DNA from: a virus
Reading direction: 5' to 3' (one strand)
IMG/VR virus record: IMGVR_UViG_3300044911_002386
Coordinates: 62,001-126,000 of that record
Length of the DNA stretch: 64,000 nt
The notes beneath the pieces were generated by a model. That model was given only the letters and a program-made list of their open reading frames with translations, had not been told where the DNA came from and did not search any database. Positions 7,116 through 62,647 of this stretch are shown here, one piece after another. The translations under genes were made by a program, and so were the position numbers. Within the stretch, counting starts at the first letter, position 1; every line of letters begins with the position of its first letter.

Positions 7116-7507
7116 TTTTGTTCGTCTCCGCCGCCAAATTCGCGCTTATATTGCTCTACAAGTTTCTGCGTTTCTGCATCTAACATTGTATCGTTTTGAA
7201 GCAGTTGTTTAGGCTCAGTCTTTTCGACCCACGGCAAAATTAACTCCTGCAGGCGGTCGAGGGCCTCGTTCGCCTGGCTTTTTACGGAGTCAAAGCTTTC
7301 TGGCGTGAGCCGGCCGTGCGATATGTACGCCAGCCACTGCTGGTGTATCGCCGTGTGGATCTGCAGATCCTCTTGGCGCTGTATTTCACGCAGCACCAGG
7401 TTTTGCTTTAACCGCCAGTTTCTGTCCGTGGGATCGGCTCGGGAGTAGTCAATTGCCCCCGATACTGCAGCCCGCACCATGTAGGCTGCTATTCGATCCC
7501 GGTCCAA
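7112..7507 (-). CDS. Tail assembly chaperone, downstream (frameshift) frame
   Basis: A 131-codon, charged, helical frame that overlaps the end of the upstream chaperone gene by 19 bp and sits directly before the tape measure gene. The only early start is TTG without a Shine-Dalgarno sequence, and the first ATG (codon 10) also lacks one. The frame is -1 relative to the upstream gene, and a run of five T lies at the junction, where a Phe tRNA on TTT can slip back to TTT. This matches the gpG/gpGT type of arrangement, so it is more likely translated as a -1 extension than on its own. Independent initiation is the alternative. Confidence 0.6.
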   Translation of the reverse strand: MDRDRIAAYMVRAAVSGAIDYSRADPTDRNWRLKQNLVLREIQRQEDLQIHTAIHQQWLAYISHGRLTPESFDSVKSQANEALDRLQELILPWVEKTEPKQLLQNDTMLDAETQKLVEQYKREFGGGDEQK

Positions 7508-34778: not shown

Positions 34779-36662
34779 TTAAACGCCTTCCGGCTTCCAC
34801 CCGCTTGTAACACCTGTAACGCCAAATTGCTCGCCGCGGGCTAAAGCCGGGACGTAACTGCTGCCGGCCGCGTCGCTCGTTAAACCGCGGTGTACGCTGT
34901 TCAGCAGGCCTTTTTCTTGATACGACCCCAGCATGCGCGTCATCCAGTCCGGGTCGTGTGAGATGTTTGACATTCCGCGAATCATTTCAGGCTGAAACGG
35001 TGGGGGTTCTTTGTGCGCCTGCACGCTCGCGATGTTGTACTTTTTTAAGTTTTCGTTGACAGATTTACTTATTTTTGTGCCGATAGAATAATGCAGCACG
35101 GGCCGCTCAAGATAATGCCCTGTTAACGTTGTAGGGTTGCCCGCAACGCTCCCCGGGCGCGGCTGCCAGTTGCGCTCCAGCATCGAATACGGCACAACGT
35201 CTTCTGGCGCGTGGTCGCCGTATTCGTCGAGCATGCGGACATGATTCACAATGCCTCGCGACAGCAATTCGATATTTCGGCGGTGCGGGCTCATGCCGCT
35301 GTTTTTCATAACTTGCCGCATAGCTTGCGTAAAGTAACGCCGGCCCTCGCCAATACCCTTGTGCTTAACAATCTCGGCCGGATTCGGCATGCCGTCTGAA
35401 ATCGCGTCGCCGGCTTCAAGTGTGTCGCCCTTTTTAACGGCGACAGTGCGGTCGGCCCCGACGTAGTGTTCTTCGCCGTCGATGGTGACGTATACGCCGC
35501 CTTGCGGTGCTTGGCGGATCTCCTGCACTTTGCCGTCGCGCTGGGCGTGAGCGGCGCCATCCGGGTATGTCTTCGGCACCTGTACCAAGGCATTTAACGC
35601 CTTGAAGCCAGAAATAGACCCGGCACCGCCGACACCGCCAGAATGCTTCGACGACAATTGCCCCTGCGATACCGGCTCGGAGAGCGCCTGAACTGCTGCA
35701 ATTCCAACGTAGTCACCGGCCGGCGGTAGCCGGCCCTTTTCGCGAAATCCGACGTCTTTAGCGAAAACTCCGCCGTCACTCGGACCGCCCACAGTCGGGC
35801 TGCGGACAAGAATATCCTTGACGCCCATTTTTTTAATGTCTTGCAGGATTTTGGGCGTCAGGACCGTGTTTCGTTTATACGGCCCCGCAGGTCGCGAAAG
35901 CAGGGCACCTTCGTTATCCGGGTCATCGACGTCTGTAGGGAAGCCACGCTCGCTCGCTGTGCTGTTCCATTCTTCGTCATCGTCATCGTCGGCGGTAACG
36001 AGCAGGCGGTGCGCCATTTGGGTCAATTGCTTGCCGTAAAAGCCGGCGTCTGCCGTAGCCGTCTTAGTATCAATTACACCCTTGCGGGCGCCGAAGGCGC
36101 CCGCAAAATACTCGGCGGGTCTTAAGCCTCGGCTGTAACTGTGCAGCACCGGCAAAGGAATCGGATCGTTTTTGTGGTCGACATATTGCATGTCGGCACC
36201 AATGATCGAATTCAGCGAGTATTTATTGCCGACACCAGACCCCAACACCTGGTGCATCAAAGGATTATCATTACCTTTAGCCTCGGCATAAACGTCCTCT
36301 ACTAGTTTCTGCTGAATAGTTGAGGCTAGTTCTAGGATCTTCTGCGTTCGCTGTTCTTCGGAGAATTTGCCGTTCGCCATGATCGCACGCAGACCGGCAC
36401 GAGCCTTTATCTGGGCATGGCGAGCGGCAAGCGTCTGCTTAATATCTTTGAGCCCGAAAGACAGGCCGCCGGTCGTATGGGCCGACTCGTGAGCGACGTC
36501 GTGCAGCCGCTTCATGACATCTCGATATTTGTCTGGGTACTGCTCGGCTAGTTTTGTCGCCAAGGCACCCATCGTCTTTTTATCTAAGACACGATCGTAG
36601 TCCCGCAGATCTTCCGGGAGTGCGTCGTTAATCAGAATTTGACCAAGCGTGGTTTTTAACAT
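34779..36662 (-). CDS. RNA polymerase beta-prime subunit, C-terminal part
   Basis: A 627-residue protein starting at an ATG coupled by TGATG to the upstream stop. It opens with LKTTLGQILINDALPEDL, equal to the TTVGRAILWMIVP strand that follows the catalytic site in bacterial beta-prime. The bridge helix region is at about 180-221 (EYFAGAFGARKGVIDTKTAT). The trigger loop follows VGIAAVQALSEP (319-330); its His (340) matches E. coli H936, while positions equal to M932 and R933 are Leu and Ser. It completes the fused protein encoded at 37552-41925. I expect the two to form the phage RNA polymerase core. Confidence 0.88.
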   Translation of the reverse strand: MLKTTLGQILINDALPEDLRDYDRVLDKKTMGALATKLAEQYPDKYRDVMKRLHDVAHESAHTTGGLSFGLKDIKQTLAARHAQIKARAGLRAIMANGKFSEEQRTQKILELASTIQQKLVEDVYAEAKGNDNPLMHQVLGSGVGNKYSLNSIIGADMQYVDHKNDPIPLPVLHSYSRGLRPAEYFAGAFGARKGVIDTKTATADAGFYGKQLTQMAHRLLVTADDDDDEEWNSTASERGFPTDVDDPDNEGALLSRPAGPYKRNTVLTPKILQDIKKMGVKDILVRSPTVGGPSDGGVFAKDVGFREKGRLPPAGDYVGIAAVQALSEPVSQGQLSSKHSGGVGGAGSISGFKALNALVQVPKTYPDGAAHAQRDGKVQEIRQAPQGGVYVTIDGEEHYVGADRTVAVKKGDTLEAGDAISDGMPNPAEIVKHKGIGEGRRYFTQAMRQVMKNSGMSPHRRNIELLSRGIVNHVRMLDEYGDHAPEDVVPYSMLERNWQPRPGSVAGNPTTLTGHYLERPVLHYSIGTKISKSVNENLKKYNIASVQAHKEPPPFQPEMIRGMSNISHDPDWMTRMLGSYQEKGLLNSVHRGLTSDAAGSSYVPALARGEQFGVTGVTSGWKPEGV

Positions 36663-36901
36663 CACGGTGTCCAGATAATATCTTGAAGCGGCTTGGGTTT
36701 AAATTCTGTTATTTTTACAGTCTTAGTAATGCCGAGAGATCGAAGCACGGACTGGAAGTCGGGGTCATTTACCGTGGAAAACACAATTGACTCGGTCAGT
36801 TGTGTTGCCACGATAATTGGATTACCCATGTCGTCTTCAATTACGACGCTATGGGCCGGCGTGTCCGCTGGTTGCAGGTTAAATTGCGTTTTAACCCGCA
36901 T
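36662..36901 (-). CDS. Small protein between RNA polymerase genes
   Basis: A 79-residue acidic protein with beta/alpha pattern (HSVVIEDDMGNPIIVATQL, then SVLRSLGITKTVKITEF). It is coupled on both sides by overlaps, so it is co-translated with the beta-prime C-terminal part. It could be an accessory subunit of the phage polymerase; I see no omega-like motif. Confidence 0.58.
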   Translation of the reverse strand: MRVKTQFNLQPADTPAHSVVIEDDMGNPIIVATQLTESIVFSTVNDPDFQSVLRSLGITKTVKITEFKPKPLQDIIWTP

Positions 36902-37551: not shown

Positions 37552-40500
37552 CTATTTATCTTCCACAATGTGTACGGGCGTGTCTACGTTGATTTCGCCG
37601 CGCCGGTAAGCCGCCACAGCCTCTAGTTTGCTTTTAAACACGCGTGGTTTACTGCGTTGATTTATTCTACTCGATGCTAGGTACAGCCCAGTCTGGTAAT
37701 CCTTGTTTGGAACGTAGTGAGCCTTGAAGCTGGACGTACTAAACAAGTTCTTACTAGGTAACATCTTATCAAGTGCTTCTTTTGCCGCCTCATTTGTGCT
37801 GGGAACGTGATATTGCATAGCGTCCCCGTCAAAATCTGCACCAAACCCCTTCGTGATTACCGGGTTAACCTCCATGACCTTATTTTTGGTCAAGCGCGGT
37901 TTAAATGCCATCACGCCGTAGCGGTGCAAGACGGGCGCCCGGTTAATTACAATGGGCTTAGCGTTCATCTGGGTGTTTAATTCGTCGAAGGCGGCTTTGT
38001 TTTTGTCTTCAACAGCCTGGAGTGCCTGCATTCGAGGTAAGCCACGACGAACAAGGCCGCGAATAACAAACGGCTTGTAGATATCCCAGGCTTTCTCTTC
38101 AGGCAGGGCTACTTCGTCCATATCCAGATCAGAGTTCGGCGTAATGACAGCGCGGCCGACCAAGTCAACAGTGCTCGAAAGCAGTTTTCGCTGCATGGTG
38201 CCGAATTTAGGACTGTCGCCGAAGATCTTGGCTAAAAACCCCTGGACGTTCTTTTCGACGTTCTTGGGGTTAGTCGGAGCACCTAAGCCAGTCACACCCT
38301 TCATTGAGTTGTAAACAGCCAGCCGCTCGTCGCCATAGTCTGATAAGGCCCCAGATGCTTCTTTCAGTGTTGAATTAGCATCAAATAACTCTTTGTAAAG
38401 GTAATTGGGGTTATCTACGAGCGGGAGCTTCTTTGGCCCCATCGTCGACACAGGGCGGAAAGCAGGCGGAATAACTGGAACCTGATTAATCATCCAGTCT
38501 TTCGGATGGATATTGGTCGATTCGGCTGACTTAAGGAATCCAAGGCGCCGAACAGCCTCATCCCGAACTGTCTTCCGACCAGACTTGATGTCTTCCCTTG
38601 CCTGCTCGATGGCTTTAGGGAGATTAATGCTGGCCAGGGCTTGTTGAATAGCCTTGGGGCCTGTTGCGTCACCCAGTTGTTCCCGGCCGGCCAAGATCCC
38701 CAGGAATTTCTTCTCTGTCAGGCCCAAGACGCGGCGAATAGGTTCTTCCATGACGGGATTGGGCATCGGCTCTTGAAGCGTAATCTTTGCCCACCGACTG
38801 CCGCCATGACCGCCCGTAAGTGACTCATCAAACAAGCCGCCTTTAATGGGCTTGAGATTTCCCTTCCAATCGACAGTCTCGGCGCTCTTGAGTTCCCGGT
38901 CGCCTGTAAGGGCCGCGGCGTCTTTGTCTGTCATGGCCATAATGTGCGTCTTGGTTCCAGTCCGCACAGTATTGATGCCAGCACCCTTTAATTGATTTAC
39001 GAACTTCTCATACACGTGTGGAACCTTGGGCAGCGGAGCGTCATACCCGGCCATGAATTGCGACCAGTACTCAGGGTTCGCTTGGCCACGTACCATCTTG
39101 GCGTCGCGGATTACTTTGCCAGCACCGTGCGAAAGCAAAGCCCCCAGTTCCAGCATGCCGACACGCTTTGCACCCTCAGAGCCGCCTTTGGCCGGTGTAC
39201 CTTCGGCTGTATAACCCGCCATCGCTCGGCCCTGGCCTTTGGATTCAGCCGTGTGGTGCAGTTTCATGAAAAACCGCTGGCCAGTTAATATTCCAGGAAT
39301 TTTATGGCCGCTCTCTGGGTTAATAACTTCTTCGGTGTCAGATAACCCGTGCTTGGCGAGTTCCTGCTGTGCAAACTCGACCAGGTCTTTCTCACTGTCG
39401 AAATCTTTGATCTTGTACGGTTTACCGGTCTTAGCCGCGACTTTACCCAACGCTGCTTCAATAATCTGGGCAGGGTTCACGCGTGAAATTAAACCAAGCG
39501 GGCTGACAAGCACTTCAAATGGGTTGCCGTCTTTGTCGTGCGGCATTTGATTATCCGGCACAACTTCCGCAATGACGCCCTTATCCCCGTAGCGACCAGT
39601 TAACTTATCGCCCGACTCCATCTGGGCCTGGCTCTTTACAACCACGGACACGCCCTTCTTTGTGTGCTCGACGTCAGTGACAATACCTGGCGAATGATGG
39701 TCCCAGGTCAGCGTGTCATTCGAGAAACTACCTGCCCGGCCGCGGTGCACTTTTCCGTACACCTGTTCTTTCTTTTTGGCGACTAGCACTAACGGGTCGC
39801 CGAAGTTGACGGTCGTGCCTTTTTTGATCGCGCCCTGGTCGTCAAAGTTATCGAGCAGTTTTTTGTCGTACTCACTGGGAAACAGACTGACAAACGCCTT
39901 TTTACCGACGTGCGTGTTGTCGTCCCACTCGGCCTCGTTCTGGTACATGTGCTCAGACGTTAGGCGCTTGGCCGCGGATTCCGAGATCACGATGGCGTCT
40001 TCGTAGTTCTTGCCGCGGAAAGGCACATACGCCACACGCATATTCATGCCGAGGGCTGCCGCTCCGCTCTTATCGGTAAAGTTGCTTGTGGCGATAATCT
40101 GGCCGGGTTTAATCACGTCGCCGGGCTGAACGGCTGCTTTTTGCGTCCAGAACGTCTTCCGATTAAACGGCATGTCGTTGTACAAGTCGACGGTCTTTTT
40201 CGTACCGTCACGCAGCCGAAGAACAATGTTGTCGGGTGTAACCTGTAGCACCTCGGCAGGCTCGTCTGCTTTAACCGTGCCCATCTTGGCGCCGATCAGA
40301 TCTTCGTGCGATATGTTCTCGTCGTCATTTGTAGCAGACTGTACGAGCGGGGCTTCGGCGTTTACGAGCGGCAAAGCCTGTGTAAACATTCGAGCGCCCA
40401 TGATCACGCGCTGCCCTTTGACCATAGACTTCATCGGCACCATGTTTGTAAGTGCCGAGAAAGTGTTGTCCATGTTCGGAACGGTGTACTGTGCGTCTTT

Positions 40501-41925
40501 CCGCGGTACATACTTAATCTTGCCGCCAACTAGTGCCGCAACCATCGGAAGATCTGACTTGTCTTCACCGGGGAACATCAGCGGCATGTCCGTAAGTTCT
40601 TGCGGCGTTTTGTATTCGGTTTTCCCGGTGTTTGCATTCCGCACCGGGATTACGAACGTATGTAAGTTTTTCCCGCTTTTTCGTGCCCCGGCGGCAAAGC
40701 GCATGTCCACGCCGACCTTGCCAGATTCCGGCGTACGCAAATAGTCAATGAATCCGAAATGGCTTGGCTGCACCGAGCGCGATTCGGCCGGGATGGCGTC
40801 CATGCTGCCGATCCCGCCTTCGCCGAGCCGGGTGACGCGCGTTTGGTGGTCAAAGATTTCGGCCGGGTTGATTTCTTCAAGACTTGATCCAAGGCCGGAC
40901 CCTAAAAGAGCGGCCTGAATCGACTTATTGAACACGCCAGTCGGAATGTGGTCTAAAGATTTTTTTGCCGTGGCTTTCCAGAGCAGTTGCCGCAGCACCG
41001 AGCGGTCTTTAACGAAACGCTCTGCCAGCAGGTCCTCGGGGCCGAACACAGACTGAAACGCCATGCTGTCTCGATCGTCCGAGTCCGCCTCTTTGCGATT
41101 AACGGCAATCAGTTTTTTCGTGATGTCGAGAATGGCGTCAGGCGTTAAATTTTTGTACGGCTTGCCCAGCGTTCGACTAGTGACTTCTTCGTCGAACTCT
41201 GTTTTGTTGAACTCAGTGGCAATAGCCTTGATCTTCGCCAGTTCATCCGCTTTCGGATCTGGCGAGTACACAAGGCGCTGATAAAGTTTGTCGAGTGTTC
41301 CGGCGTCACCTTGCTGCATGTTGACAGCAGTGATCTCGTTACCCCAGGTATCACGCAGTTGTTTGTCTGTGACACCAAGAGTTTTCAAAAGCGGCATCAG
41401 CGGAATCTGCGCCTGCCCAATTTGAATTTTGAACACACCAGTTTGCGGGTCTAAGTAGTACCGGTGCGAACGGCCTTTACCTGGAAGCGTGTTAACGTGG
41501 GCCTCTAACTCGCCGTTGTCTTTTTGTCTGGTAAACACGCCGGGACGCAAACGTAATTGATGAGCCAGCGTGTATTCGACGCCCTTGTTCACGAATGTGC
41601 CGGAGTCCGTTAAGTACGGCACACTGGCTAACGTGACGGGCCGATTGGCGACGGGCGTATTCGTCTTGTTATCCGTCAGCGTCCATGTGCCACGGAGTTT
41701 TCGCGACAGGTTGCCGCGTGTAAGCACAGCACGCTTTTGATCGGCTTTGGTAAACGCTTCCGGGCCGTCGTACGCTACGTCGTTTAATTGCAGCGTGTAC
41801 AGATCGTTTTTAATTGGCTCGATGCTCTGTGCACTCTGCAAAGCATTGTTAAAAATGCTTTGACGCAAAGCGGGAACATCGCCAAATTCGCGGGGCTGTT
41901 CTTGAGGCGCGTTTAAGGGCAGCAC
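37552..41925 (-). CDS. RNA polymerase beta / beta-prime N-terminal fusion
   Basis: A 1457-residue protein; the GTG start lies six bases after GGAGG. Residues of about 1-1000 align in order with bacterial beta: PYLTDSGTFVNKGVEYTL (103-120), fork region, NYEDAIVISE (640-649), and GDKLTGRYGDKGVI (772-785) with both active-site lysines. At about 1010-1031 beta-prime begins (LKPIKGGLFDESLTGG), then the PPAFRP region and NRAPVLHRYG. The metal site is GADFDGD (1362-1368): the three Asp are present, but the usual first Asn is Gly. It ends soon after, where the separate C-terminal gene takes over. No intein is visible. Enzymes of this kind let a phage transcribe its genes independently of the host. 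Confidence 0.93.
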   Translation of the reverse strand: MLPLNAPQEQPREFGDVPALRQSIFNNALQSAQSIEPIKNDLYTLQLNDVAYDGPEAFTKADQKRAVLTRGNLSRKLRGTWTLTDNKTNTPVANRPVTLASVPYLTDSGTFVNKGVEYTLAHQLRLRPGVFTRQKDNGELEAHVNTLPGKGRSHRYYLDPQTGVFKIQIGQAQIPLMPLLKTLGVTDKQLRDTWGNEITAVNMQQGDAGTLDKLYQRLVYSPDPKADELAKIKAIATEFNKTEFDEEVTSRTLGKPYKNLTPDAILDITKKLIAVNRKEADSDDRDSMAFQSVFGPEDLLAERFVKDRSVLRQLLWKATAKKSLDHIPTGVFNKSIQAALLGSGLGSSLEEINPAEIFDHQTRVTRLGEGGIGSMDAIPAESRSVQPSHFGFIDYLRTPESGKVGVDMRFAAGARKSGKNLHTFVIPVRNANTGKTEYKTPQELTDMPLMFPGEDKSDLPMVAALVGGKIKYVPRKDAQYTVPNMDNTFSALTNMVPMKSMVKGQRVIMGARMFTQALPLVNAEAPLVQSATNDDENISHEDLIGAKMGTVKADEPAEVLQVTPDNIVLRLRDGTKKTVDLYNDMPFNRKTFWTQKAAVQPGDVIKPGQIIATSNFTDKSGAAALGMNMRVAYVPFRGKNYEDAIVISESAAKRLTSEHMYQNEAEWDDNTHVGKKAFVSLFPSEYDKKLLDNFDDQGAIKKGTTVNFGDPLVLVAKKKEQVYGKVHRGRAGSFSNDTLTWDHHSPGIVTDVEHTKKGVSVVVKSQAQMESGDKLTGRYGDKGVIAEVVPDNQMPHDKDGNPFEVLVSPLGLISRVNPAQIIEAALGKVAAKTGKPYKIKDFDSEKDLVEFAQQELAKHGLSDTEEVINPESGHKIPGILTGQRFFMKLHHTAESKGQGRAMAGYTAEGTPAKGGSEGAKRVGMLELGALLSHGAGKVIRDAKMVRGQANPEYWSQFMAGYDAPLPKVPHVYEKFVNQLKGAGINTVRTGTKTHIMAMTDKDAAALTGDRELKSAETVDWKGNLKPIKGGLFDESLTGGHGGSRWAKITLQEPMPNPVMEEPIRRVLGLTEKKFLGILAGREQLGDATGPKAIQQALASINLPKAIEQAREDIKSGRKTVRDEAVRRLGFLKSAESTNIHPKDWMINQVPVIPPAFRPVSTMGPKKLPLVDNPNYLYKELFDANSTLKEASGALSDYGDERLAVYNSMKGVTGLGAPTNPKNVEKNVQGFLAKIFGDSPKFGTMQRKLLSSTVDLVGRAVITPNSDLDMDEVALPEEKAWDIYKPFVIRGLVRRGLPRMQALQAVEDKNKAAFDELNTQMNAKPIVINRAPVLHRYGVMAFKPRLTKNKVMEVNPVITKGFGADFDGDAMQYHVPSTNEAAKEALDKMLPSKNLFSTSSFKAHYVPNKDYQTGLYLASSRINQRSKPRVFKSKLEAVAAYRRGEINVDTPVHIVEDK

Positions 41926-42954: not shown

Positions 42955-43308
42955 TCAACTCTTTTTTGTTGGCAACATTCCGTATACCTGGAACCACTCT
43001 AACCAGACGCGGTAATGATTATTTTCCTCGTCCCAGTGGTCGCTGCGTTTAAGCAGCCTATACCAGCCGTTTACTATTTTATCGTTTATCTCGTCAAACT
43101 CTGCTTTTTGCTTTTCGTCCCACAAAACAAACATTTTTGACTTAAAGTCGTACTGCAGTTCAAGATTTTCAACCTCATCCTGCTTAAGATTTCCAAGTGC
43201 AGCATCACTACCAATAACCGGAAAACCGTCCATCGTGCCCGGCCAATTCAGAGCATGCTGCCCGTGCTGGCCGCCACCAACTTCTGCGTGATATTTACGC
43301 GTGCTCAT
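42955..43308 (-). CDS. Conserved-looking protein, unknown
   Basis: A 117-residue, aromatic-rich, acidic protein. The C-terminal half (KIVNGWYRLLKRSDHWD, then YRVWLEWFQVYGMLP) has many Trp/Tyr. No signal peptide or known motif. Start overlaps the stop of the upstream gene (ATGA). I do not recognise it. Confidence 0.58.
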   Translation of the reverse strand: MSTRKYHAEVGGGQHGQHALNWPGTMDGFPVIGSDAALGNLKQDEVENLELQYDFKSKMFVLWDEKQKAEFDEINDKIVNGWYRLLKRSDHWDEENNHYRVWLEWFQVYGMLPTKKS

Positions 43309-43697
43309 ATGCTCCTGCTTTGTCGGTATTTCTGTGCTTTCCGGTTAGCTTTAGCCCGGGCAGCGTAGATCTTGTAGGTGTCCGCAAGTTCCATAGCTTT
43401 AATGTCATCGGCTGAGATGTCGGGTTCTGTAACCCGTGCCGCGCCGTAACCAAGGCCAGCACCTATGCCCAGCCCGGCGGCAGCTGGCAGACCAAGTGCT
43501 GTACCCGTCACGCCAGGTGCCTGGCTCGCAAGCCCAATACCACCGCCAAGTAACAGCGTCGGTAAAATGTAGTTCATGTAGGCTTTTTTCTCAGCTGCCA
43601 GTTTAATGCGCTGCTGTAGTTGATCGCCGTTTAGACCCTCTTCGGCGCAGCGGGTAATGAACCCGAGCCGAAAAGCCTCGTTAGGGGTCATGTCCAT
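43305..43697 (-). CDS. Small glycine-zipper membrane protein
   Basis: A 130-residue protein with an N-terminal amphipathic region (NEAFRLGFITRCAEEGL) and two hydrophobic Gly-rich helices, about 42-58 (ILPTLLLGGGIGLASQA) and 68-84 (GLPAAAGLGIGAGLGYGAA), then a basic C-terminus. This is a two-helix membrane hairpin. Size could fit a holin, but the family resemblance is to other glycine-zipper proteins in the window. Confidence 0.55.
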   Translation of the reverse strand: MDMTPNEAFRLGFITRCAEEGLNGDQLQQRIKLAAEKKAYMNYILPTLLLGGGIGLASQAPGVTGTALGLPAAAGLGIGAGLGYGAARVTEPDISADDIKAMELADTYKIYAARAKANRKAQKYRQSRSI

Positions 43698-44202: not shown

Positions 44203-44526
44203 TTACTGGGCGTCAGCCGAAACACTTCTAGCGGGCCAGCCTTTTCCGGGTGCCGTTAGTTTTTCCGCCGGGGCGTCAATAGCCCGCATGCCCGTGCGGT
44301 TTTCGCAGTCGGGGCATTTTGTCCAACCCTGGCCATCGCCAGATCGGACCCGGCCTGTGCCGTTACATGTCTTACAGTCTTTTGTGTCCGGCTTTGGTGC
44401 CGTATCCGGCGCGACGTGAATCAAAGACGCATAAGCGGCCTCGGCTGCCACTGCGGGAACAAAGTTTGGGTCGGCCGGCGCCGCCGCAGTAAAAAGGCTT
44501 AATAACCAAAAAAGCCAGTTAAACAT
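44203..44526 (-). CDS. Secreted protein with DnaJ-type zinc knuckle
   Basis: The ATG of MFNWLFWLLSLFTAAAPADP follows ACGAGG by five bases, giving 107 residues. The first ~18 residues are a clear signal peptide. Residues of about 50-75 carry CKTCNGTGRV and KCPDCENRTG, one pair of the CxxCxGxG units of DnaJ zinc fingers. It would act outside the cytoplasm, directly after the papain-like protease gene. It could bind unfolded or zinc-dependent partners there. Confidence 0.6.
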   Translation of the reverse strand: MFNWLFWLLSLFTAAAPADPNFVPAVAAEAAYASLIHVAPDTAPKPDTKDCKTCNGTGRVRSGDGQGWTKCPDCENRTGMRAIDAPAEKLTAPGKGWPARSVSADAQ

Positions 44527-44536
44527 AAAAACCTCG

Positions 44537-45562
44537 TTAAATGTTGCCGCGAGCGCCGTAGCTCTTGAGTTTCTTAGGCGGCCAACCGGCCGCACCAGAC
44601 ACCGCAATCATGTCGCGATTCTTGATGTCCGACCATCGCGACCAAAATGAGCCGACGGGAATACTGATGTTTGTACCGTAAATAATTCTCGGACCATCGT
44701 TCCAATCACCCCAAGAATTTTGGACCAGCACCAGCGGTTCTTTGTAGAGTTTAATAATTTCCGGCCGGTCGTCTACAGCGATATACGCCATCGCGTGCGC
44801 CCATTGTTTTGTGCGGCGGCTGACGCCATTAGCGTCACGATTTGATTCAAAGCCCTCACTACCGCACGAGCTAATCCCATAACCGTTCGCCAGCATGTCG
44901 CGGAGTTCTTCATATGTATGAAGCACTGTCGCTGTGCGGATAAGATGATCTTTGCCGATTTGCCGCCACGCTTCCGGCGGCGTTTTATTGCCATACAGCC
45001 CCGCGTTACGCGAACTGTAACGGGTCAGATCTACACCAATTTCGTCATACTTTTTTCGCAGCCACATGCCGCTGTCGTTCATCGCGACTTTAACAGCGTC
45101 AGAGCAGAACCAACCGTCGCCGGAGTGCCGGCGCCAATTATAAAATGCTTCCGTGCTCAACACGCCGTTTAAGCGTGCCTCGTCACTAACCTCGGGTGCA
45201 CCCTCAAGCCGGCCTGAAACTTCGTCAGGCTGCCCACTTGTGATGTCTGTGCACATCGTGGTTAAGCACGCGTTACGCGTCGACCAACTTACGCAGTCGC
45301 CGCGCCCCTGTGCTCCGCCCGGCAAACAGTCCGGGTACAGTTTAAGAATTTCAAGAAACGTCAGGCTGAGTTTGTCTTTACCTGAGTCTTCCAGGCCAAA
45401 GGTAGAGCACGCCATGGCTCCGTCGGGAAGGCCGCCCGCAGCAGCAATTTCTGCCTGAAGCTGGGCTGTTTTTTCGGGATCGCATAATGCACCCAAAAAG
45501 CCCGCTTCATATGCTGCCACAACGTCATAGACGTTTGCAAACAACTTCTCTTCGAAAGCCAT
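44537..45562 (-). CDS. Papain-like cysteine protease (C1-type)
   Basis: A 341-residue protein. The triad is visible in papain order: Cys90 in RGDCVSWSTRNA with Gln85 before it as oxyanion residue, His256 in QWAHAMAYIAVD, and Asn282 in LVQNSWGDWNDGP, the classic NSWG motif. There is no signal peptide at the chosen start, which has a GGAGAGA site. About 70 N-terminal residues precede the domain and could be a propeptide. It lies in a block with secreted and metalloprotease genes. Possible roles are processing of virion or host surface proteins; papain-type enzymes are rare in phages. Confidence 0.82.
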   Translation of the reverse strand: MAFEEKLFANVYDVVAAYEAGFLGALCDPEKTAQLQAEIAAAGGLPDGAMACSTFGLEDSGKDKLSLTFLEILKLYPDCLPGGAQGRGDCVSWSTRNACLTTMCTDITSGQPDEVSGRLEGAPEVSDEARLNGVLSTEAFYNWRRHSGDGWFCSDAVKVAMNDSGMWLRKKYDEIGVDLTRYSSRNAGLYGNKTPPEAWRQIGKDHLIRTATVLHTYEELRDMLANGYGISSCGSEGFESNRDANGVSRRTKQWAHAMAYIAVDDRPEIIKLYKEPLVLVQNSWGDWNDGPRIIYGTNISIPVGSFWSRWSDIKNRDMIAVSGAAGWPPKKLKSYGARGNI

Positions 45563-45577: not shown

Positions 45578-46090
45578 TCAAGCGTCAGCGTCAGGGGTGA
45601 CTTCCGGTTCCGGCGTTACTTCCGGTTCCGGCGTTACTTCCGGTTCCGGCGTTACTTCCGGTGCTGCTTTTTCGCCAACCAGCGTGATCACAAAACCACC
45701 AGGCTGGCCCGGCGGCAGCGTGTCTACCGCTACGAAGCGGTGAAATGCCGGTACCGACGAGTTACCCGCATCGTCAACGTCGACGAGCGTTAAGACAACC
45801 TCAGCGTTCTGCGGAACAGTTACTGTGCCGAGATCAACCGAGTTGCCAGCAAAAGAAGTCGCACCCTTGTTTTCACCGTTAACGTCAACAGAGAAAACGC
45901 GTGTTACTACGTCAGAATCGGTCGGCGGTGCTACGACAACCGCATATGTTAAAAGATCTGCCATGTATTCTCTCCTTACTTGGATACAACGTAAATACTG
46001 CGGGGCCACGGGCGGTTCTTGTCCTCGCAGTATAAGGACAAGCCACGCAACTAAACATACTACAACAAAAAGTGTAAACAACGAAGGCAT
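45578..46090 (-). CDS. Membrane-anchored beta-domain protein with two possible starts
   Basis: The long form has 170 residues and starts TAATG-coupled to the upstream gene. Its N-terminus is one strong transmembrane helix (LFTLFVVVCLVAWLVLIL). An in-frame ATG at 45964 (MADLLTYAVVV) follows AAGGAG with good spacing and would give a soluble 128-residue form. The body is an Ig/FN3-like beta domain (to about residue 140), then TPEPEV repeats. Both products may be made from one gene. Function unknown. Confidence 0.62.
   Translation of the reverse strand: MPSLFTLFVVVCLVAWLVLILRGQEPPVAPQYLRCIQVRREYMADLLTYAVVVAPPTDSDVVTRVFSVDVNGENKGATSFAGNSVDLGTVTVPQNAEVVLTLVDVDDAGNSSVPAFHRFVAVDTLPPGQPGGFVITLVGEKAAPEVTPEPEVTPEPEVTPEPEVTPDADA
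45597..45665. repeat. 18-bp tandem repeats
   Basis: Almost four copies of GTTACTTCCGGTTCCGGC, encoding VTPEPE units at the C-terminus of the anchored beta-domain protein. In-frame copy-number change is possible. Confidence 0.88.
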
Positions 46091-46527
46091 TATTTGGCCG
46101 AGTTAATGATGACGTCGCACGCTTCAACAATCTTTGAGCGCGTCTGTTCGTTGCCCGGCAGCACGTCGTCTGTTCCGAGCGTGGTCAAAAATACTTGCTC
46201 AATTGCCTCATCTAATCCTGGATACTTATTCACCTGTGTGATTGCGAGTTGCAGCGTGTTCTCCTGCAGATCGCTCCACTGCTCGGTCGTTACGACGCGC
46301 TTGCCGGCATCGCGATTAACGACAGCCCGTAATGCTTTGTATATGCCGCGAACGTCCGCCTTGTCAGCAGCTGCAGCGTCGGCAAGCAATTTTTGGATTG
46401 TCGGATCAGTCTTGTCAGTGCTGCTGTCTTCGACAACAACCGGCGCCTGCTGATATGTGCCGCGAATATACGGCTCAGCAAACGAGGCCAACAGTACTAG
46501 ACCGGCCAACCAAACTAACCTTTTCAT
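46090..46527 (-). CDS. Secreted protein, unknown
   Basis: A 145-residue protein with a signal peptide (MKRLVWLAGLVLLASFAEP). The mature part is helical and acidic. It is ATGA-coupled with the gene before and TAATG-coupled with the gene after, so it is one unit with the neighbouring membrane proteins. Near a metalloprotease and holin candidates, a spanin-like or periplasmic lysis role is possible, but no lipobox is present. Confidence 0.6.
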   Translation of the reverse strand: MKRLVWLAGLVLLASFAEPYIRGTYQQAPVVVEDSSTDKTDPTIQKLLADAAAADKADVRGIYKALRAVVNRDAGKRVVTTEQWSDLQENTLQLAITQVNKYPGLDEAIEQVFLTTLGTDDVLPGNEQTRSKIVEACDVIINSAK

Positions 46528-46802
46528 ACAACACCTTTCGACGGTTGCTTGTGCTCAACAATAACGCGAAGAAGATTCGTGCACGCCTCAACGCCTTCGG
46601 GGCAGTCTTCGGCAGAAAGTTTATCGCGCAGGTTTGTAACCGCAACGATATCGTTAACGAGCATAACGGCGATCGATTGCTGTACTTCCGGTGCCCTCTC
46701 TGCACCGACAGTTTTAGTCAGCAACGACGCAATCTGCTGTCGGTATGCCGCCAGCATTACAGCAACAAACACTACACTCGCTACTATTTGAAACGCAGTC
46801 AT
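46524..46802 (-). CDS. Small membrane-anchored protein
   Basis: A 92-residue protein with an N-terminal transmembrane helix (TAFQIVASVVFVAVMLAAY) and a helical exterior part. GGAGG site. The layout, one N-terminal anchor with a soluble helical domain, is compatible with an inner-membrane spanin or holin accessory protein. Unproved. Confidence 0.58.
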   Translation of the reverse strand: MTAFQIVASVVFVAVMLAAYRQQIASLLTKTVGAERAPEVQQSIAVMLVNDIVAVTNLRDKLSAEDCPEGVEACTNLLRVIVEHKQPSKGVV

Positions 46803-46828: not shown

Positions 46829-47650
46829 TCAAGTTTGCGGCACGAGCACGTACGGCCGCCCATTAATGACTAATGTACCGTGAATATGCGGCGCAGCGTC
46901 TTTTGTAATTGCGTATTTTTCTTTACGCTTACCGTATAGTTTGACAATTTCTTTAATGTCGCCCTTTTGTGGGCCAGTTACATTTGGATCGTAATAAGGC
47001 GCCATTAAATTGCCAGAATTTAAATGTGGCAAACCAAGCGCGTGCCCAAGTTCGTGGCAGATCACCGCTACGGCCATATTAAATGACCACGGCTCGGCCT
47101 CGTCGAACATCTGATCTAATTGCACGTTTTCAGTTACGCCGCACGGTAATTCGCTCCAGGCCAGCGTGCCGCCCTTGTTATCTAATCCGCTAGCACGGCC
47201 AACGCCTGATCGAGCATAAATGTTTGCTTTATCTGAGCCGTCAACGCGGGTCGGCTCAATATCGCAAACTTCGGCCCACTGCGAAAAAGCAATGTCGTAC
47301 GCTTCTTTAACCTGCTCGTCTGTTACGCCTGGAAGCGTAATGTCGTGATAGTACGTAATCTTTTTATGCAGCCACTTGCACGGAGCACCGCCAGGCGCCG
47401 TCAGATTAAAATCTGGTAGCCCGCATCGCGGCCTGTGAATGCGACTAGCAGTGCGTGGCTCAACGGCGCCGGTCGGCTCCAGGCCGTTAAACTCCTGATA
47501 GGCTTTTACAGCCCGCGATAAATCGGCCCCGCGAATTGTCTTAACCTTCGCCCACGGTGTTTCACCAAAGTAACCAAGGTCAAAGAGTTTTTTCAGTGTT
47601 TCATTAGCGGAGAGAATTTCGTTTTTTTGTTTTTTTGGCGTCCTTGCCAT
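46829..47650 (-). CDS. Matrixin (M10-type) metalloprotease with cysteine switch
   Basis: A 273-residue protein in three parts. Residues of about 12-72 match a peptidoglycan-binding-like helical domain (LKKLFDLGYFG ... AVKAYQEFNGLEPTG). PRCGLPD at 74-80 is the cysteine-switch motif of matrix metalloproteases, whose Cys (76) blocks the zinc in the zymogen. The catalytic domain holds HELGHALGLPH (199-209), with His199, Glu200, His203, His209 and a downstream Met216 turn (NLMAPYY). No signal peptide is seen, so export would need a holin or lysis. It probably cleaves envelope or host proteins; the substrate is unknown. Confidence 0.87.
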   Translation of the reverse strand: MARTPKKQKNEILSANETLKKLFDLGYFGETPWAKVKTIRGADLSRAVKAYQEFNGLEPTGAVEPRTASRIHRPRCGLPDFNLTAPGGAPCKWLHKKITYYHDITLPGVTDEQVKEAYDIAFSQWAEVCDIEPTRVDGSDKANIYARSGVGRASGLDNKGGTLAWSELPCGVTENVQLDQMFDEAEPWSFNMAVAVICHELGHALGLPHLNSGNLMAPYYDPNVTGPQKGDIKEIVKLYGKRKEKYAITKDAAPHIHGTLVINGRPYVLVPQT

Positions 47651-47662
47651 ACTGTGTCACCT

Positions 47663-48067
47663 TTATTGTTCTTTCGCTAGTTCGATTAATTCGTCCAGCG
47701 TGGCGTCATCAGCCGACTCGCCCAGTTCGTAAAGTGCCGTCAAAATAGGGTTAGCGTCGTGCCGGCTGTCCTGTTTGTCCGCACAACAGTCGCGCCACAA
47801 AAGGTTTGCCCGGCGCCGCAAACGAATTAGTTTGCGGGCGGGCAACGATCGAATGTCTTTGATGTCTTGTTTAATCTCGTCGGGTTTTCGCAACTCTCGG
47901 CAGTAATAGATAATCTGCAGCATCAACGAAATAATCGCGAGTACCAAAAGCGGGTCGAACTGAACTGAGTTGTCAGCCCGAAACACCAACTCGTTTGTAA
48001 GTCGATCCCGCAGTGCCGACAAACGCGGCGAAGCATCGACCCGCTTTTGGAGATCTCCGTTTGTCAT
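47663..48067 (-). CDS. Single-span membrane protein
   Basis: A 134-residue protein with one hydrophobic segment at about 38-55 (FDPLLVLAIISLMLQIIYY) followed by a basic region (ARKLIRLRRRANLLW), then an acidic end. It lies between a two-span membrane protein and the matrixin. A lysis accessory role is possible. Confidence 0.57.
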   Translation of the reverse strand: MTNGDLQKRVDASPRLSALRDRLTNELVFRADNSVQFDPLLVLAIISLMLQIIYYCRELRKPDEIKQDIKDIRSLPARKLIRLRRRANLLWRDCCADKQDSRHDANPILTALYELGESADDATLDELIELAKEQ

Positions 48068-48068
48068 G

Positions 48069-48443
48069 TTATTGCTGTGCGGTCATCCGCATTTTTTCAA
48101 TGGTGGTCGCTTCCAAATAGTGGTAGCGATGGCTCAGGATAGTCGCCCGCAGTTGATTGCGGTTCGACAGATACTTCCACACCAATGCCGCGTTCACAAC
48201 AATGACCTGCGTCGCACCCACGACGGCGGTCAACGCCTGCGTCAGCTCAGCAGCTGTTGTGTTGCTGACCCAGCCAATAAGCACAGCCACAGCCACAAGA
48301 TTAGCCACAGCCGAACCAGCCATTGTCCAAAAATCAGACGACATCCAGTTTCCAACGCCCGTTTCGGCGGTGTTGTTGGCCGCCTCATTTAACATCCGCA
48401 TTTCTTCGCGGACAGTATCAACGCTTACTTTACGTGTCGACAT
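48069..48443 (-). CDS. Holin-like two-span membrane protein
   Basis: A 124-residue protein with two transmembrane helices (MAGSAVANLVAVAVLIGWV and LTAVVGATQVIVVNAALVW) and a charged N- and C-terminus. Size and topology fit class II holins. GGAGG site, preceded by a hairpin. It is near the matrixin gene, which would need an exit route. Holin is a topology-based guess. Confidence 0.5.
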   Translation of the reverse strand: MSTRKVSVDTVREEMRMLNEAANNTAETGVGNWMSSDFWTMAGSAVANLVAVAVLIGWVSNTTAAELTQALTAVVGATQVIVVNAALVWKYLSNRNQLRATILSHRYHYLEATTIEKMRMTAQQ

Positions 48444-49501: not shown

Positions 49502-49746
49502 CACGTTAACACTCGAAATAACTGCACGGCAAAAGCCAGAATTACGACAATCCAGGCAATCAGACCGCTGAGAGCTAAAAAAACAATAAACGACGTCAGA
49601 GTCAATGCCGGGAACAATTTCTGAATAGGTATTTTACGAAACAGCAGCAATGCACGCATCCATTGCGGCGACGGCTTGTCCGGCGTTACGTCTGGTGTCG
49701 GCGAAGGTTTCGGCTTTGGCTGCCAGGGCCAGTTTATTTTGCTCAT
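49501..49746 (-). CDS. Small membrane protein with Pro-rich N-terminus
   Basis: An 81-residue protein. The N-terminus is Pro/Lys-rich (PKPKPSPTPDVTPDKPSP), the C-terminal half is one or two hydrophobic helices (LTLTSFIVFLALSGLIAWIV). Coupled by overlap on both sides. Could be a lysis or membrane accessory protein. Confidence 0.6.
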   Translation of the reverse strand: MSKINWPWQPKPKPSPTPDVTPDKPSPQWMRALLLFRKIPIQKLFPALTLTSFIVFLALSGLIAWIVVILAFAVQLFRVLT

Positions 49747-51590
49747 CGCGGTGTTCCTAAAAAGTTGCCGCCAAACCGCTCGATTGTTTGATCTACGATT
49801 GATGGCTGCGGCATATTGCCGTGAAAAGCCTGCAGGGCTAATTGATGGCGATAAGCCGGGTTAATAAACGCCTGATACGACTGATTATTCCGCTGGGCTT
49901 GCAGCATCCAGTCGCCCCGTCTTTTAATTTCAGCCATGTGATTACGGATGTTCTCAAACACAGGCTTCTGCATGTCATACGCGAAAGGACCGCGGCCAAA
50001 TACCGAGTTCCGCAGTTCATTTAAATACACGCTGTTCGCCGCGGCTTTTACGCCAGCCGGAATAACGGTCGGATCTATGTGGAGCCTGAAATTCGTGGGC
50101 CGGTGGGTAATGCCTTTGTATTTCGGCTTAGCGTCGTCGATTACCCAGTCATCAGGCGATTGTGCCATCAAGCGCCGAATGATCGCGGCCTTGTGGTCGT
50201 AGCGCTTGTTATCCGAATGTTCTTTTGCCGCTAAAAGGTCTTTGAGGATTTCGGGCTGCGCGGCTTTCTCTATTTTTTCTTGCTTGTCGTAGTAGGCCGC
50301 GTCTTCGGACAAGTGATCCTTGGCAATTTCTTTGGCGATTTGATCGTTGTCGGTGTGCTCGTGCTCATGCCGTGTTCCCCTAGTTAATTCTTTTTTCAAA
50401 AACTTATTATCGGCCTTGCCGTCGGCTTCGCCACCAGATAACAGATCCGCCTGTTTCTGCTGGCTTTGCAGTTTTTGCAGTAGGGCCGAAAGGTCTTGCC
50501 CTGGTTTGTATTTCAGCGTGCCCGGAAGTTTGTCATACGCCGCAATCGTGGGCGTGTGAAACTTATAGACAAGATCGGCAATACGCTTTTTTTCTTGCTC
50601 GACGTCCGGCGTCCATTTTTTTGCGGGGTCTTTTTCGTACCGCTGTTTTGTGCGGCTAAGGCGTTGTTCGTACGCCTGCTCGACAGGCGGGTTTACATGC
50701 ACCCTTTTGTATTTGCTTAAAATCTCAGGCGGAAGATACGACAGCTGCACACCCTCGACCACGGCGGGCCCGTCGTTTTTCTCCAACGTTTGCATAGCCG
50801 TTTGCCGCATCAGTGCCCGAAAGTCTTGTTCTTTGGGCGAGCCGGCTGGCAAATGATTATCCGGCGTATTGTCGTCAAGAAACTTTTGAAAATTGGGATC
50901 TTGATCGACCGATACGCGCGGCAGTTTTAATTTTTCGGCTAGGGCTTTTGACAGCGTAGATTTGCCGGCCCCAGAATGCCCGCTTACGAGCACAACCTGG
51001 CTCGGGTCCGCGGCAGCGGCTTTGCGTACCTCATTGTCGCCGAGCACGTTCTTTTTTCGTACTGCGACCGTGATGTGAAACGGATGGCCCTTCGGCAGCG
51101 GCGACAATCCGTAACTCTTGCGAATTGCGGTTAAGCCGGGGCTCGAGACTTGCACGGCCCAAACTTTGCTTACGCCGCTAATGCCTCGGACGGTTATTTC
51201 TTTTAACGGCCCAAGTGTGTAGCCAAAGTTGTGGCCACGCTCATTGATCTTATCGGCACCCACCGACTGCACTTCGTCGGCAGTCATCACAGAAATATGG
51301 GCGTTCAAAAGATCTGCGTCAACGTTGGGCACATTCATCGCGCCGGCCAACGGCAGTTCTGCCCCGGGCGCCACCAAGGCGTCAAATAATCCACGGACTA
51401 ACGCGTTTGGCACAGATAGCAGAAGCCATCCGCTTTTTGCCAGATACAAGCGGCCAGATAATGAATGATTTGCAGCCGTCTTTGTTCCCGTGCGGCCAAG
51501 CCAGCCAATGGCGTTGCCAAGCTGGTACACGGTTTGATCTTCCAACGATGTTTCCCACAACAGCGGATCAAGACTGAATAAGCTGTTCAT
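49743..51590 (-). CDS. 2H phosphoesterase - P-loop kinase fusion
   Basis: A 615-residue protein. Residues of about 90-180 show the two 2H-superfamily signatures AHISV (His98) and FHITV (His172), as in cyclic phosphodiesterases and RNA end-processing enzymes. A P-loop kinase domain follows at about 195-370: Walker A GHSGAGKST (204-212), VSVDQDP, a Walker B-like strand AVVEGVQL, and an Arg-rich lid. It resembles polynucleotide kinase-type domains. The C-terminal ~240 residues are helical and unknown. The domain pair recalls RNA-repair proteins such as tRNA ligase modules. The start lies 17 bp from a tRNA gene. Activity is inferred, not shown. Confidence 0.75.
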   Translation of the reverse strand: MNSLFSLDPLLWETSLEDQTVYQLGNAIGWLGRTGTKTAANHSLSGRLYLAKSGWLLLSVPNALVRGLFDALVAPGAELPLAGAMNVPNVDADLLNAHISVMTADEVQSVGADKINERGHNFGYTLGPLKEITVRGISGVSKVWAVQVSSPGLTAIRKSYGLSPLPKGHPFHITVAVRKKNVLGDNEVRKAAAADPSQVVLVSGHSGAGKSTLSKALAEKLKLPRVSVDQDPNFQKFLDDNTPDNHLPAGSPKEQDFRALMRQTAMQTLEKNDGPAVVEGVQLSYLPPEILSKYKRVHVNPPVEQAYEQRLSRTKQRYEKDPAKKWTPDVEQEKKRIADLVYKFHTPTIAAYDKLPGTLKYKPGQDLSALLQKLQSQQKQADLLSGGEADGKADNKFLKKELTRGTRHEHEHTDNDQIAKEIAKDHLSEDAAYYDKQEKIEKAAQPEILKDLLAAKEHSDNKRYDHKAAIIRRLMAQSPDDWVIDDAKPKYKGITHRPTNFRLHIDPTVIPAGVKAAANSVYLNELRNSVFGRGPFAYDMQKPVFENIRNHMAEIKRRGDWMLQAQRNNQSYQAFINPAYRHQLALQAFHGNMPQPSIVDQTIERFGGNFLGTPR

Positions 51591-51606
51591 GGGTTTTCCT
51601 TGTACG

Positions 51607-51678
51607 CTGCTCGGCTAGGATTCGAACCTAGAACCATCGCATTAACAGTGCGCCGCGCTACCGTTGCGCCACCGAGCA
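51607..51678 (-). tRNA. tRNA-Asn (GTT)
   Basis: A 72-nucleotide cloverleaf: acceptor TGCTCGG/CCGAGCA (7 bp), D-arm GCGC-AACGGTA-GCGC, anticodon loop CTGTTAA with anticodon GTT, T-arm CTAGG-TTCGAAT-CCTAG, and discriminator G as in other tRNA-Asn. The top anticodon stem pair (27-43) is G-A. No CCA is encoded, so the host must add it. It is the only tRNA I found and lies between a small membrane protein gene and the 2H/kinase gene, probably cut out of their transcript. Confidence 0.93.
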
Positions 51679-51683
51679 ATAAT

Positions 51684-51848
51684 TCAACGCGAGCCGCCGA
51701 TCGCTTCAGCACTCGTGGCCGAAGACGCGTGGACAGCGGACACGCAATGGTTGACCATGGCCTGTGCGGACAGCAGCAGCAACACCGCACAGAACGCACT
51801 GGCGCCCCACGCGGCGACACTCAATTGTTTACGGACGTTCATTGTCAT
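51684..51848 (-). CDS. Small membrane protein, 54 residues
   Basis: Starts at the ATG of MTMNVRKQLSVAAWG, about ten bases after AGGAG and overlapping the end of the holin-like gene. Residues of about 8-30 form one hydrophobic helix (AAWGASAFCAVLLLLSAQAM). The stop is six bases before the tRNA gene. Position after a holin candidate suggests a lysis-related membrane protein. Confidence 0.55.
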   Translation of the reverse strand: MTMNVRKQLSVAAWGASAFCAVLLLLSAQAMVNHCVSAVHASSATSAEAIGGSR

Positions 51849-52185
51849 GTTGATGCAACTCCTCATGATCACGTTCATGGTGGATGATGACTTTAATACC
51901 GGCACCAGATAACAACGAAATCGCCAAATCGGTTAGCGTCGAGCCGCCCATGCCGGCCAGCACGCAAATCCCAATTAGGCCGTATACATTTTCTGTCCGG
52001 CAGTAATTTTGATACCAAATCAGTGCGATGGCTAACCCCAGAAAACCGGCGTTAAGCATCGAGCTGATGACATTAAGTTTAGACAGTTTTTTGGCAAACC
52101 GCAAAAGAGTTGCCAAGCCTGCGAAGCCCGCGGCCCCGAAAGCACTGATAAATACGGCAATAGCGTGCAAATTTTCGTCAGACAT
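51829..52185 (-). CDS. Holin-like membrane protein
   Basis: A 118-residue protein with three hydrophobic segments, about 8-28 (AVFISAFGAAGFAGLATLL), 43-58 (LNAGFLGLAIALIWY) and 68-92 (YGLIGICVLAGMGGSTLTDLA), and a charged His/Glu-rich C-terminus. The GMGGSTLTDLA segment resembles LydA-type holins. A terminator and a non-coding stretch lie upstream, so it begins a new unit. Confidence 0.6.
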   Translation of the reverse strand: MSDENLHAIAVFISAFGAAGFAGLATLLRFAKKLSKLNVISSMLNAGFLGLAIALIWYQNYCRTENVYGLIGICVLAGMGGSTLTDLAISLLSGAGIKVIIHHERDHEELHQHDNERP

Positions 52186-53089: not shown

Positions 53090-54124
53090 TCAGAGAATCT
53101 TGGCTGCAATTAAGCAACCACGCGCGACGGCATGCAGGGGGTCATTGGCGTGCCGCACTTCTTTAATTGGTAATGGAAATCCGTTGTCGTCCAATTTTTT
53201 TGCGAACACGTCAATAAAGCCTTTGGCCTGGCTGGTCCCTCCGGCAATTACAACCGGCAACGGATCTTTAAATTTGGGTAACGCCTTGTGGCCAGCAATC
53301 GCGTGCGCCAGCATTTTGGTCGTGTAGTCAATCAACCGCTCGTAATACGCACTTACAGCAGCCAGCACCGGATTATCGTTCTGTTCGCCAATCGTGAAGT
53401 CACCCTGCTCTTTCTCGGCCTGTACCACCGAGTCTTTTTCACCAGTAGCGACGGCGGCCATACGGTCAATCCAGTCGCCGGATTTGGTGGTGCTAAACAT
53501 GACTGTCGGCTCACCATTGAGCATGATGCAGCAGTTCACCATGCCAGCGCCGCATGACAGTGCCACGCCGGTGTAGTCATCTTTCTCGAGTTCGGAATAG
53601 CACAGCGCCTCGGCTTCGTTGATCGCCCGGGCCATGTACCCGCATTCGGCCAAAATGGTCATAACCACGTCTTCGTGATACCCAACGTCAAAGTCTTCGT
53701 CTTCTTGGTCGACGGGCTGGGCCGGAACGCAAAACACAAGTTTTTCGTGGGGTTCGCTGGCCGTGCCGACGACTTCTTTCAGGATGTACGCCAGGATGCG
53801 CCGAGCGTCTTTTTCCTTGGCCGAAACAACGCCCCGGAACATGGGCCGTTTGGCTGACTCGTTGCGCTCGATGGCTTTTTCAATAGCGTCTTGCCCAAGA
53901 AGAATAAACGTGCCGTCAGCGTCTTTGACGAATAACTTGCCCTGCAGGCCTTTCTCAATCATCTTCGTGGCCACGGGGGTCGTCGGCTTGATGGCAAAGA
54001 ACGCGTCACGCAGTTCCTTGTACTTCACGTAGTCGAACTTATCGTCGCTGGTGTAGCTAACGGGGGCTTCGGAGTCTGAAGCCAGGACAATGAATGAAGT
54101 ACCAACGTCTAAACCTTTGGCCAT
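53090..54124 (-). CDS. Actin/Hsp70-superfamily ATPase (ParM/MreB-like)
   Basis: A 344-residue protein with the superfamily motifs in order: phosphate-1 GLDVGTSFIVLAS (4-16), phosphate-2 LSCGAGMVNCCIM (about 189-201), and adenosine motif VVIAGGTSQAKGF (about 303-315). The length fits actin-like filament proteins rather than full Hsp70, since no substrate-binding domain is present. Phage relatives form filaments that segregate DNA or position replication centres. It has an AAGGG site. The filament role is inference. Confidence 0.75.
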   Translation of the reverse strand: MAKGLDVGTSFIVLASDSEAPVSYTSDDKFDYVKYKELRDAFFAIKPTTPVATKMIEKGLQGKLFVKDADGTFILLGQDAIEKAIERNESAKRPMFRGVVSAKEKDARRILAYILKEVVGTASEPHEKLVFCVPAQPVDQEDEDFDVGYHEDVVMTILAECGYMARAINEAEALCYSELEKDDYTGVALSCGAGMVNCCIMLNGEPTVMFSTTKSGDWIDRMAAVATGEKDSVVQAEKEQGDFTIGEQNDNPVLAAVSAYYERLIDYTTKMLAHAIAGHKALPKFKDPLPVVIAGGTSQAKGFIDVFAKKLDDNGFPLPIKEVRHANDPLHAVARGCLIAAKIL

Positions 54125-60928: not shown

Positions 60929-61136
60929 GAGTGCACTCCTCTTGGGTGTTCTGGACTTTTGACATATACGCTTGTCGTGCCGGGGCCGTCTCTTCGACAA
61001 GTTTTTTCCAGCCTGCTACCGCCGGCCGACATTCACCGCCGTCGCAGCACGTCTCGACGATGATGTGGCAAAACGGACAGACGTGTTTTGAGCGAATCTC
61101 GACTAATGCGGATTCACATGCGGGGCAAAGTGCCAT
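60921..61136 (-). CDS. Small zinc-ribbon protein
   Basis: A 71-residue protein with CPAC (4-7) and CPFC (20-23) plus CCDGGEC (30-36). This pattern (CPFC ... ETCCxGG) occurs in small phage proteins. The start is TAATG-coupled to the upstream gene. Role unknown; a nucleic acid or protein contact is likely. Confidence 0.7.
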   Translation of the reverse strand: MALCPACESALVEIRSKHVCPFCHIIVETCCDGGECRPAVAGWKKLVEETAPARQAYMSKVQNTQEECTRG

Positions 61137-62627: not shown

Positions 62628-62647
62628 GGTGTTGTTCCGCAATTGTA

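Follow-up and report, generated by a model that had tools for sequence, protein, structure and literature searches.

The window analysed here, a stretch of 64,000 nucleotides corresponding to positions 62,001 to 126,000 of the IMG/VR virus record IMGVR_UViG_3300044911_002386, encodes on its minus strand a protein with the domain order of the matrix metalloproteases (MMPs). An earlier inspection of the letters and their translated reading frames (the sequence-only reading) had placed this open reading frame at 46829-47650 and had described a PG-binding-like prodomain, a PRCGLPD motif, an HExxHxxGxxH zinc site and a Met-turn; all of these are found there, exactly within those limits. The features of the gene and its product are as follows.

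46829-47650, minus strand: phage pro-matrixin of 273 aa, lacking a signal peptide (Pfam PF00413 and PF01471 above cut-offs; PDB matches to proMMPs)
47444-47587, minus strand: PG_binding_1-like prodomain, residues 22-69
47411-47431, minus strand: cysteine switch PRCGLPD, residues 74-80 (Cys76 codon at 47423-47425)
47378-47380, minus strand: Cys91, which co-varies with Cys170
46931-47377, minus strand: matrixin catalytic domain, residues 92-240 (full-length PF00413; Foldseek matches to MMP catalytic domains)
47141-47143, minus strand: Cys170, partner of Cys91 in a disulfide predicted from co-variation
47024-47056, minus strand: zinc site HELGHALGLPH, residues 199-209 (H199, E200, H203 and H209 invariant)
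47003-47005, minus strand: Met-turn methionine M216 (M in 29/29 close relatives, L in two divergent relatives)
46838-46879, minus strand: C-terminal segment, residues 258-271, ending INGRPYVLVP, a predicted beta hairpin of low pLDDT

By its domains the product is a matrixin of the MEROPS M10A type with an MMP-like domain order and putative protease activity. The profile search proposed along with the sequence-only reading found both domains above the Pfam cut-offs: Peptidase_M10 (PF00413) matches residues 92-240 over the whole profile (1-159/159) at 69.1 bits (cut-off 24), and PG_binding_1 (PF01471) matches residues 22-69 at 30.4 bits (cut-off 23). When compared with PDB sequences using phmmer, the protein matches proMMP-9, proMMP-1, proMMP-2, proMMP-7 and stromelysin-1 (best E value 8e-18), and the best of these (proMMP-9 and proMMP-1) align to it through the prodomain, the PRCGxPD motif and the zinc site. 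No PHROGs family was matched, and tblastn against the INPHARED phages gave no match. The N-terminus (MARTPKKQKN) contains no hydrophobic segment by hydropathy and hence no signal peptide of the kind carried by secreted animal MMPs; a hidden one is excluded by a near-identical locus, in which an in-frame stop lies two codons upstream of the ATG.

Relatives were recruited by two scans with patterns that lie outside the switch, giving 8 and 42 loci and 29 distinct proteins. R75-C76-G-L-P-D-F81 is invariant in 29/29 of these, and no other invariant run of the pro-region reaches its length (7 residues; permutation p 0.0017), other parts of the prodomain having diverged. In the C-terminal segment G258 (alignment numbering), I262, N263, G264, Y267, L269 and P271 are likewise invariant in the 29 relatives. 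Residue 74 varies, being R, K, H, L or A in relatives other than the window's phage, so that the conserved core is RCGLPDF and not the PRCGxPD of the sequence-only reading, although the cysteine switch that it proposed is indeed conserved. A pattern scan demanding both the switch and the zinc site (with a TGC codon and limited spacing in the case of the prokaryotic genomes) detected 75 viral stretches, as against 5 matches in 84,980 prokaryotic genomes, among which L046 (Bathyarchaeum) alone is clearly a pro-matrixin with PRCGLPDF. L044, L047 and L048, from the same prokaryotic scan, were rejected for want of a fitting frame.

Among divergent phage matrixins the motif decays by degrees, with persistence of the cysteine. 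Representatives that possess a prodomain have RFCSCPD, PRCGCAD or RRICALPD in place of the switch, and those without a PG-binding prodomain have RFCALPE or CGCKASE. It is improbable that Cys76 is kept for folding or metal binding in an enzyme that lacks cysteine-switch latency. Matrixin latency mechanisms do vary, since karilysin employs an aspartate residue (PMC6949598), but the phage cysteine is retained even where the remaining motif, and the prodomain itself, is degraded. The zymogen architecture is strongly indicated by these sequences, and the protein is very probably a cysteine-switch zymogen with predicted latency.

A structural model agrees with this assignment. AlphaFold, when supplied with 46 sequences, gave a pLDDT of 82.7, superseding an unusable run with five sequences (pLDDT 48.5), and confidence in the switch region is moderate (mean 70 for block 71-80 and 53 for block 81-90). 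The top 22 Foldseek matches in the PDB are all zymogen proMMP chains, the mature catalytic domains ranking after them, and the query TM-score is about 0.62-0.70 to most zymogen chains compared with about 0.50 for mature domains. This ranking implies that the prodomain is modelled at its proMMP position, subject to the caveat that AlphaFold has seen proMMPs and may recall them. The expectation that Cys76 would lie near the zinc is supported in part, in that the model appears closest to proMMP zymogens over both domains, but is tempered by the moderate confidence at residues 71-90 and by the possibility that the proMMP arrangement was learned.

Two further properties set the phage proteins apart. 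Cys91 and Cys170 vary together: in 67 sequences both are present in 48, neither in 18 and one only in 1, the exception being L242, where a cysteine lies close to the aligned position. In L069 and L079 the cysteines are shifted at both places. This co-variation suggests a disulfide, and hence a site of action outside the reducing cytosol despite the missing signal peptide. In addition, the positions of the structural-zinc histidines, which are typical of MMPs but do not strictly define matrixins, are occupied by W165 and M181 in the phage protein and mostly by histidine in human and cellular homologues. In a tree of catalytic domains the phage matrixins group together, the only intruder being L231, which has a very long branch; their monophyly is compatible with an AU test (p 0.20), and the human and most cellular matrixins fall outside. 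The phage proteins are in essence a single clade, distinct from the human and cellular matrixins, and their long divergence as one clade, with L231 alone intruding, led us to reject a recent capture from an animal host.

The genes that flank the matrixin are alike in order and orientation across 28 compared loci, with conservation of up to 28/28. They include the following.

44203-44526, minus strand: secreted-looking CxxC(x)n protein (23/28 loci; in L317 and L318 homologues adjoin the papain-like gene)
44537-45562, minus strand: papain-like protein of 341 aa (GDCV, WAH and NSWG, for C/H/N; motifs conserved in the family)
45578-46090, minus strand: protein with an N-terminal anchor and a repetitive tail of PEVTPE type (transmembrane (TM) segment; 24/28 loci)
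46090-46527, minus strand: 145-aa protein with a hydrophobic N-terminus (28/28 loci; homologue adjoins the papain-like gene in L317, E 2e-23)
46524-46802, minus strand: small single-TM protein directly downstream of the matrixin (hydropathy; syntenic in 28/28 loci)
47663-48067, minus strand: single-TM protein directly upstream of the matrixin (28/28 loci; related protein near the L194 matrixin, E 7e-5)
48069-48443, minus strand: two-TM protein, holin-like by topology only (28/28 loci)
51829-52185, minus strand: protein with two TM segments by prediction and a third on visual inspection, resembling holins in topology only (27/28 loci; no Pfam match)

The papain-like protein matches no Pfam family and has no match in the phage collection; a faint RecA match of its N-terminus was judged spurious. 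A scan for its gene recovered 66 viral loci, and a matrixin is encoded within 6 kb in 65 of them. In L318 (IMGVR_UViG_3300021092_000047), a distant phage, a module of matrixin, TM, papain-like and CxxC genes (4168-7688) is located between tail genes and adjoins a baseplate-J-like gene, the matrixin following directly after the latter. The presence of the same genes in this distant setting indicates that the cassette genes travel as a unit. L317 possesses the 145-aa, papain-like and CxxC genes together without a matrixin, and the two arrangements point to the papain-like set as the core and to the matrixin as a frequent companion. A third protease, of the S1 trypsin-like type and with a hydrophobic N-terminus, is encoded in the phage's own genome (L206:4373-5254), and a counterpart with a similar N-terminus is present in a relative (L220:4103-4966).

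The source record is a 167.8-kb IMG/VR virus with genes for a GpA-type terminase, a baseplate-J protein and a tail-sheath-like protein, and the phage is large, myovirus-like and tailed. Lengths of about 194-205 kb are shared by many of the related IMG/VR contigs, suggesting that these are near-complete genomes. The RNA polymerase is encoded by two genes (37552-41925 and 34779-36665), the former specifying a 1457-aa protein that fuses Rpb2-type and Rpb1-type parts and is 32% identical to that of Salmonella phage Arash. This phage and Vibrio phages D69, D148 and D181 are the nearest named relatives by polymerase and terminase (about 30% identity). A Volactin-family actin-like protein (53090-54124; E 1.9e-61), 34-36% identical to haloarchaeal plasmid proteins, occurs in this otherwise bacterial-looking phage. 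A 615-aa protein with 2H phosphoesterase-like and P-loop kinase-like domains is encoded at 49743-51590, and a single tRNA-Asn (gtt) lies just upstream of it within the block (51606-51678). Unrelated proteins encoded at 43305-43697, 61136-61762 and 61812-62642 share an xAFxxGxxxxxxAE-type start, which is possibly a targeting or processing signal.

The sequence-only reading had located the matrixin in a phage lysis region. The small TM proteins and the papain-like protein of the cassette make this description plausible, but no recognised endolysin or holin family is represented, and the cassette genes have no match to any known holin, spanin or endolysin family. The matrixin is not itself an endolysin by family, its catalytic domain being Peptidase_M10 and not a peptidoglycan-hydrolysing domain, and with TM proteins that resemble holins in topology alone no canonical cassette of recognised holin and endolysin is seen. 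In nine records there were no matches to SLT, Amidase_2 or Phage_lysozyme and none to M23 over the cut-off; M23 matches below the cut-off were rejected, since their frames (about 630 and 1460 aa) correspond to the RNA polymerase genes. Each of the nine related phage records contains exactly one PG_binding_1 match, which in the window's phage is the matrixin prodomain. In a 204.6-kb relative no Pfam peptidoglycan-hydrolase family was represented among 192 minus-strand ORFs of 88-1100 aa; ORFs of lesser length, the majority of those on the plus strand and a structural protein of 1554 aa lie outside this set. By contrast, an endolysin and cell wall hydrolases are annotated in a distant relative, Salmonella phage Arash.

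A lead to the host comes from the papain-like neighbour and not from the matrixin. A homologue of the former is encoded on pPLIM01 of Planctopirus limnophila (tblastn E 5e-3; profile E 1.6e-11), and is the sole plasmid match. pPLIM01 resembles a phage in having genes for terminase, portal and capsid, and no endolysin is annotated on it; the homologous gene (NC_014149.1 1184-2218) is unannotated and specifies an N-terminal hydrophobic segment. Divergent matrixin phages encode secreted CxxCH proteins, one of which is weakly similar to planctomycete cytochromes (E 0.0033). Small secreted cysteine-rich proteins with a GLFGRT motif are common to the phage (L202:19432-19791) and a relative (L225:6487-6813), in a style that we take to recall planctomycete proteins. 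This lead is weak, and we give a planctomycete host an even chance. Planctomycetes have been described as having protein walls (PMC3422733), and they possess lysozyme-sensitive peptidoglycan (PMC4432640), so that a muralytic enzyme is still to be expected, a part that the papain-like protein may play.

How might a phage use such a zymogen? We propose that synthesis of the matrixin would take place in the host cytoplasm, a reducing compartment in which the thiolate of Cys76 would cap the catalytic zinc and the prodomain would cover the cleft, keeping the enzyme inert during virion assembly. Late in infection the membrane would be opened, for which the 2-3-TM proteins of the matrixin block are candidates, and the matrixin could then reach the oxidising envelope. 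Loss of the Cys-Zn bond and cleavage of the variable linker (82-90) would yield the active protease, in which a disulfide can arise between Cys91 and Cys170. With the papain-like protein as its partner, this protease would degrade envelope protein, possibly of a protein-rich planctomycete-type wall, and virions would exit. Action after release, or otherwise outside the cytoplasm, is fairly probable, as the joint occurrence of Cys91 and Cys170 suits an oxidising site. A role in egress is an even proposition, and we give about the same even chance to the explanation as a whole, namely that of an egress-cassette pro-matrixin made in the cytoplasm, held latent by its cysteine switch and used as the cell opens.

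The genomic setting also suits a virion protein, which tells against egress, because the gene block adjoins RNA polymerase and structural genes. A virion-associated role, in which the packaged zymogen would be activated by exit from the capsid or by contact and would attack surface proteins of the host at entry, is rather unlikely; it would accord with the long same-strand block in which the gene lies together with those for RNA polymerase, the sheath and further structural proteins, with the position of the L318 matrixin directly after a baseplate-J-like gene and with the missing signal peptide, but most of the immediate neighbours encode small proteins of membrane or secreted type, some of which travel with the papain-like gene. 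These membrane proteins, and the poor suitability of a disulfide-bearing metzincin for the cytoplasm, also make it improbable that the enzyme trims phage structural proteins during assembly. Collagen-repeat fibres might be its targets in that case, since related genomes encode collagen-repeat proteins, a classical matrixin substrate class, but such repeats are also frequent in phages without matrixins. In the matrixin phages they are found at L208:3341-4513 and in the relative G007 (PF01391 to E 2.8e-78). Synthesis in the cytoplasm, expected in the absence of a signal peptide, would be compatible with a protease of host takeover or anti-defence inside the cell, yet latency and a cysteine pair would be of little use in the cytosol and no link to defence genes was seen, making this very improbable. 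As for egress, a broader scheme is put forward tentatively and is itself doubtful: large planctomycete phages without a recognisable murein hydrolase may open the envelope with a papain-like enzyme and a matrixin zymogen, the switch of which is freed once a membrane breach brings oxidising conditions. If the matrixin does serve egress, exit from a bacterial cell would be protein-directed, and the cassette would point to possible lysis genes for hosts with poorly known phages, which are perhaps planctomycetes.

The sequence-only reading regarded the latent protease as what would be a new kind of timing device, a putative role. The viral clade and its gene context are consistent with novelty, but cysteine-switch matrixins are known in animals and, rarely, in cellular prokaryotes, and a phage protein of similar fold is present in BFVD. 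We found no description of a phage cysteine-switch matrixin in the open-access literature, and a 2025 phylogenetic study of MMP transfer between animals and microbes has no discussion of viruses or phages in its text (PMC12587646). What appears new to us is not the kind of enzyme, which is known, but the clade of viral proteins, the absence of the structural-zinc ligands, the pair of cysteines and the cassette. The BFVD protein (A0A6J5RTD2, unannotated, from an uncultured Caudovirales phage) matches the fold of the phage matrixin over nearly its full length (TM 0.69/0.64) with only 16% identity. Insect viruses (granulovirus, iridovirus, ascovirus and entomopoxvirus) also encode proteins of matrixin fold; these are viruses of eukaryotes, and their identity to the phage protein is 12-24% among the fold matches listed.

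Karilysin, a bacterial MMP from Tannerella forsythia, shares the matrixin catalytic domain, but it has a 14-residue pro-peptide with an aspartate switch (PMC6949598) in contrast to the prodomain and cysteine of the phage protein. Closer in plan are the cellular prokaryotic pro-matrixins L046 (Bathyarchaeum; L046:2683-3792), L241 and L242, which combine a PG-binding-like prodomain, a cysteine switch and a catalytic domain and have no obvious signal peptide; they differ in retaining the structural-zinc ligands and in falling outside the phage clade. The switches of the two recovered by profile search are PRCGFPD (L241) and DRCGTLD (L242), and such proteins are rare (1/398 and 2/396 genomes; genome sets that overlapped were counted as one sample). 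The animal proMMPs (MEROPS M10A; e.g. proMMP-1, proMMP-9 and stromelysin-1) resemble the phage matrixin in domain order, RCGxPD, HExxHxxGxxH and Met-turn, and their zymogens are the closest to its predicted fold. In contrast to them, the phage protein has neither signal peptide nor hemopexin domain, has replaced the structural-zinc histidines (W165 and M181), carries an extra cysteine pair and belongs to a separate clade. The proMMP plan of PG-binding-like prodomain, cysteine switch and matrixin domain is therefore a regular component in one large phage lineage, and the separate viral clade bears on the origin of the cysteine-switch architecture.
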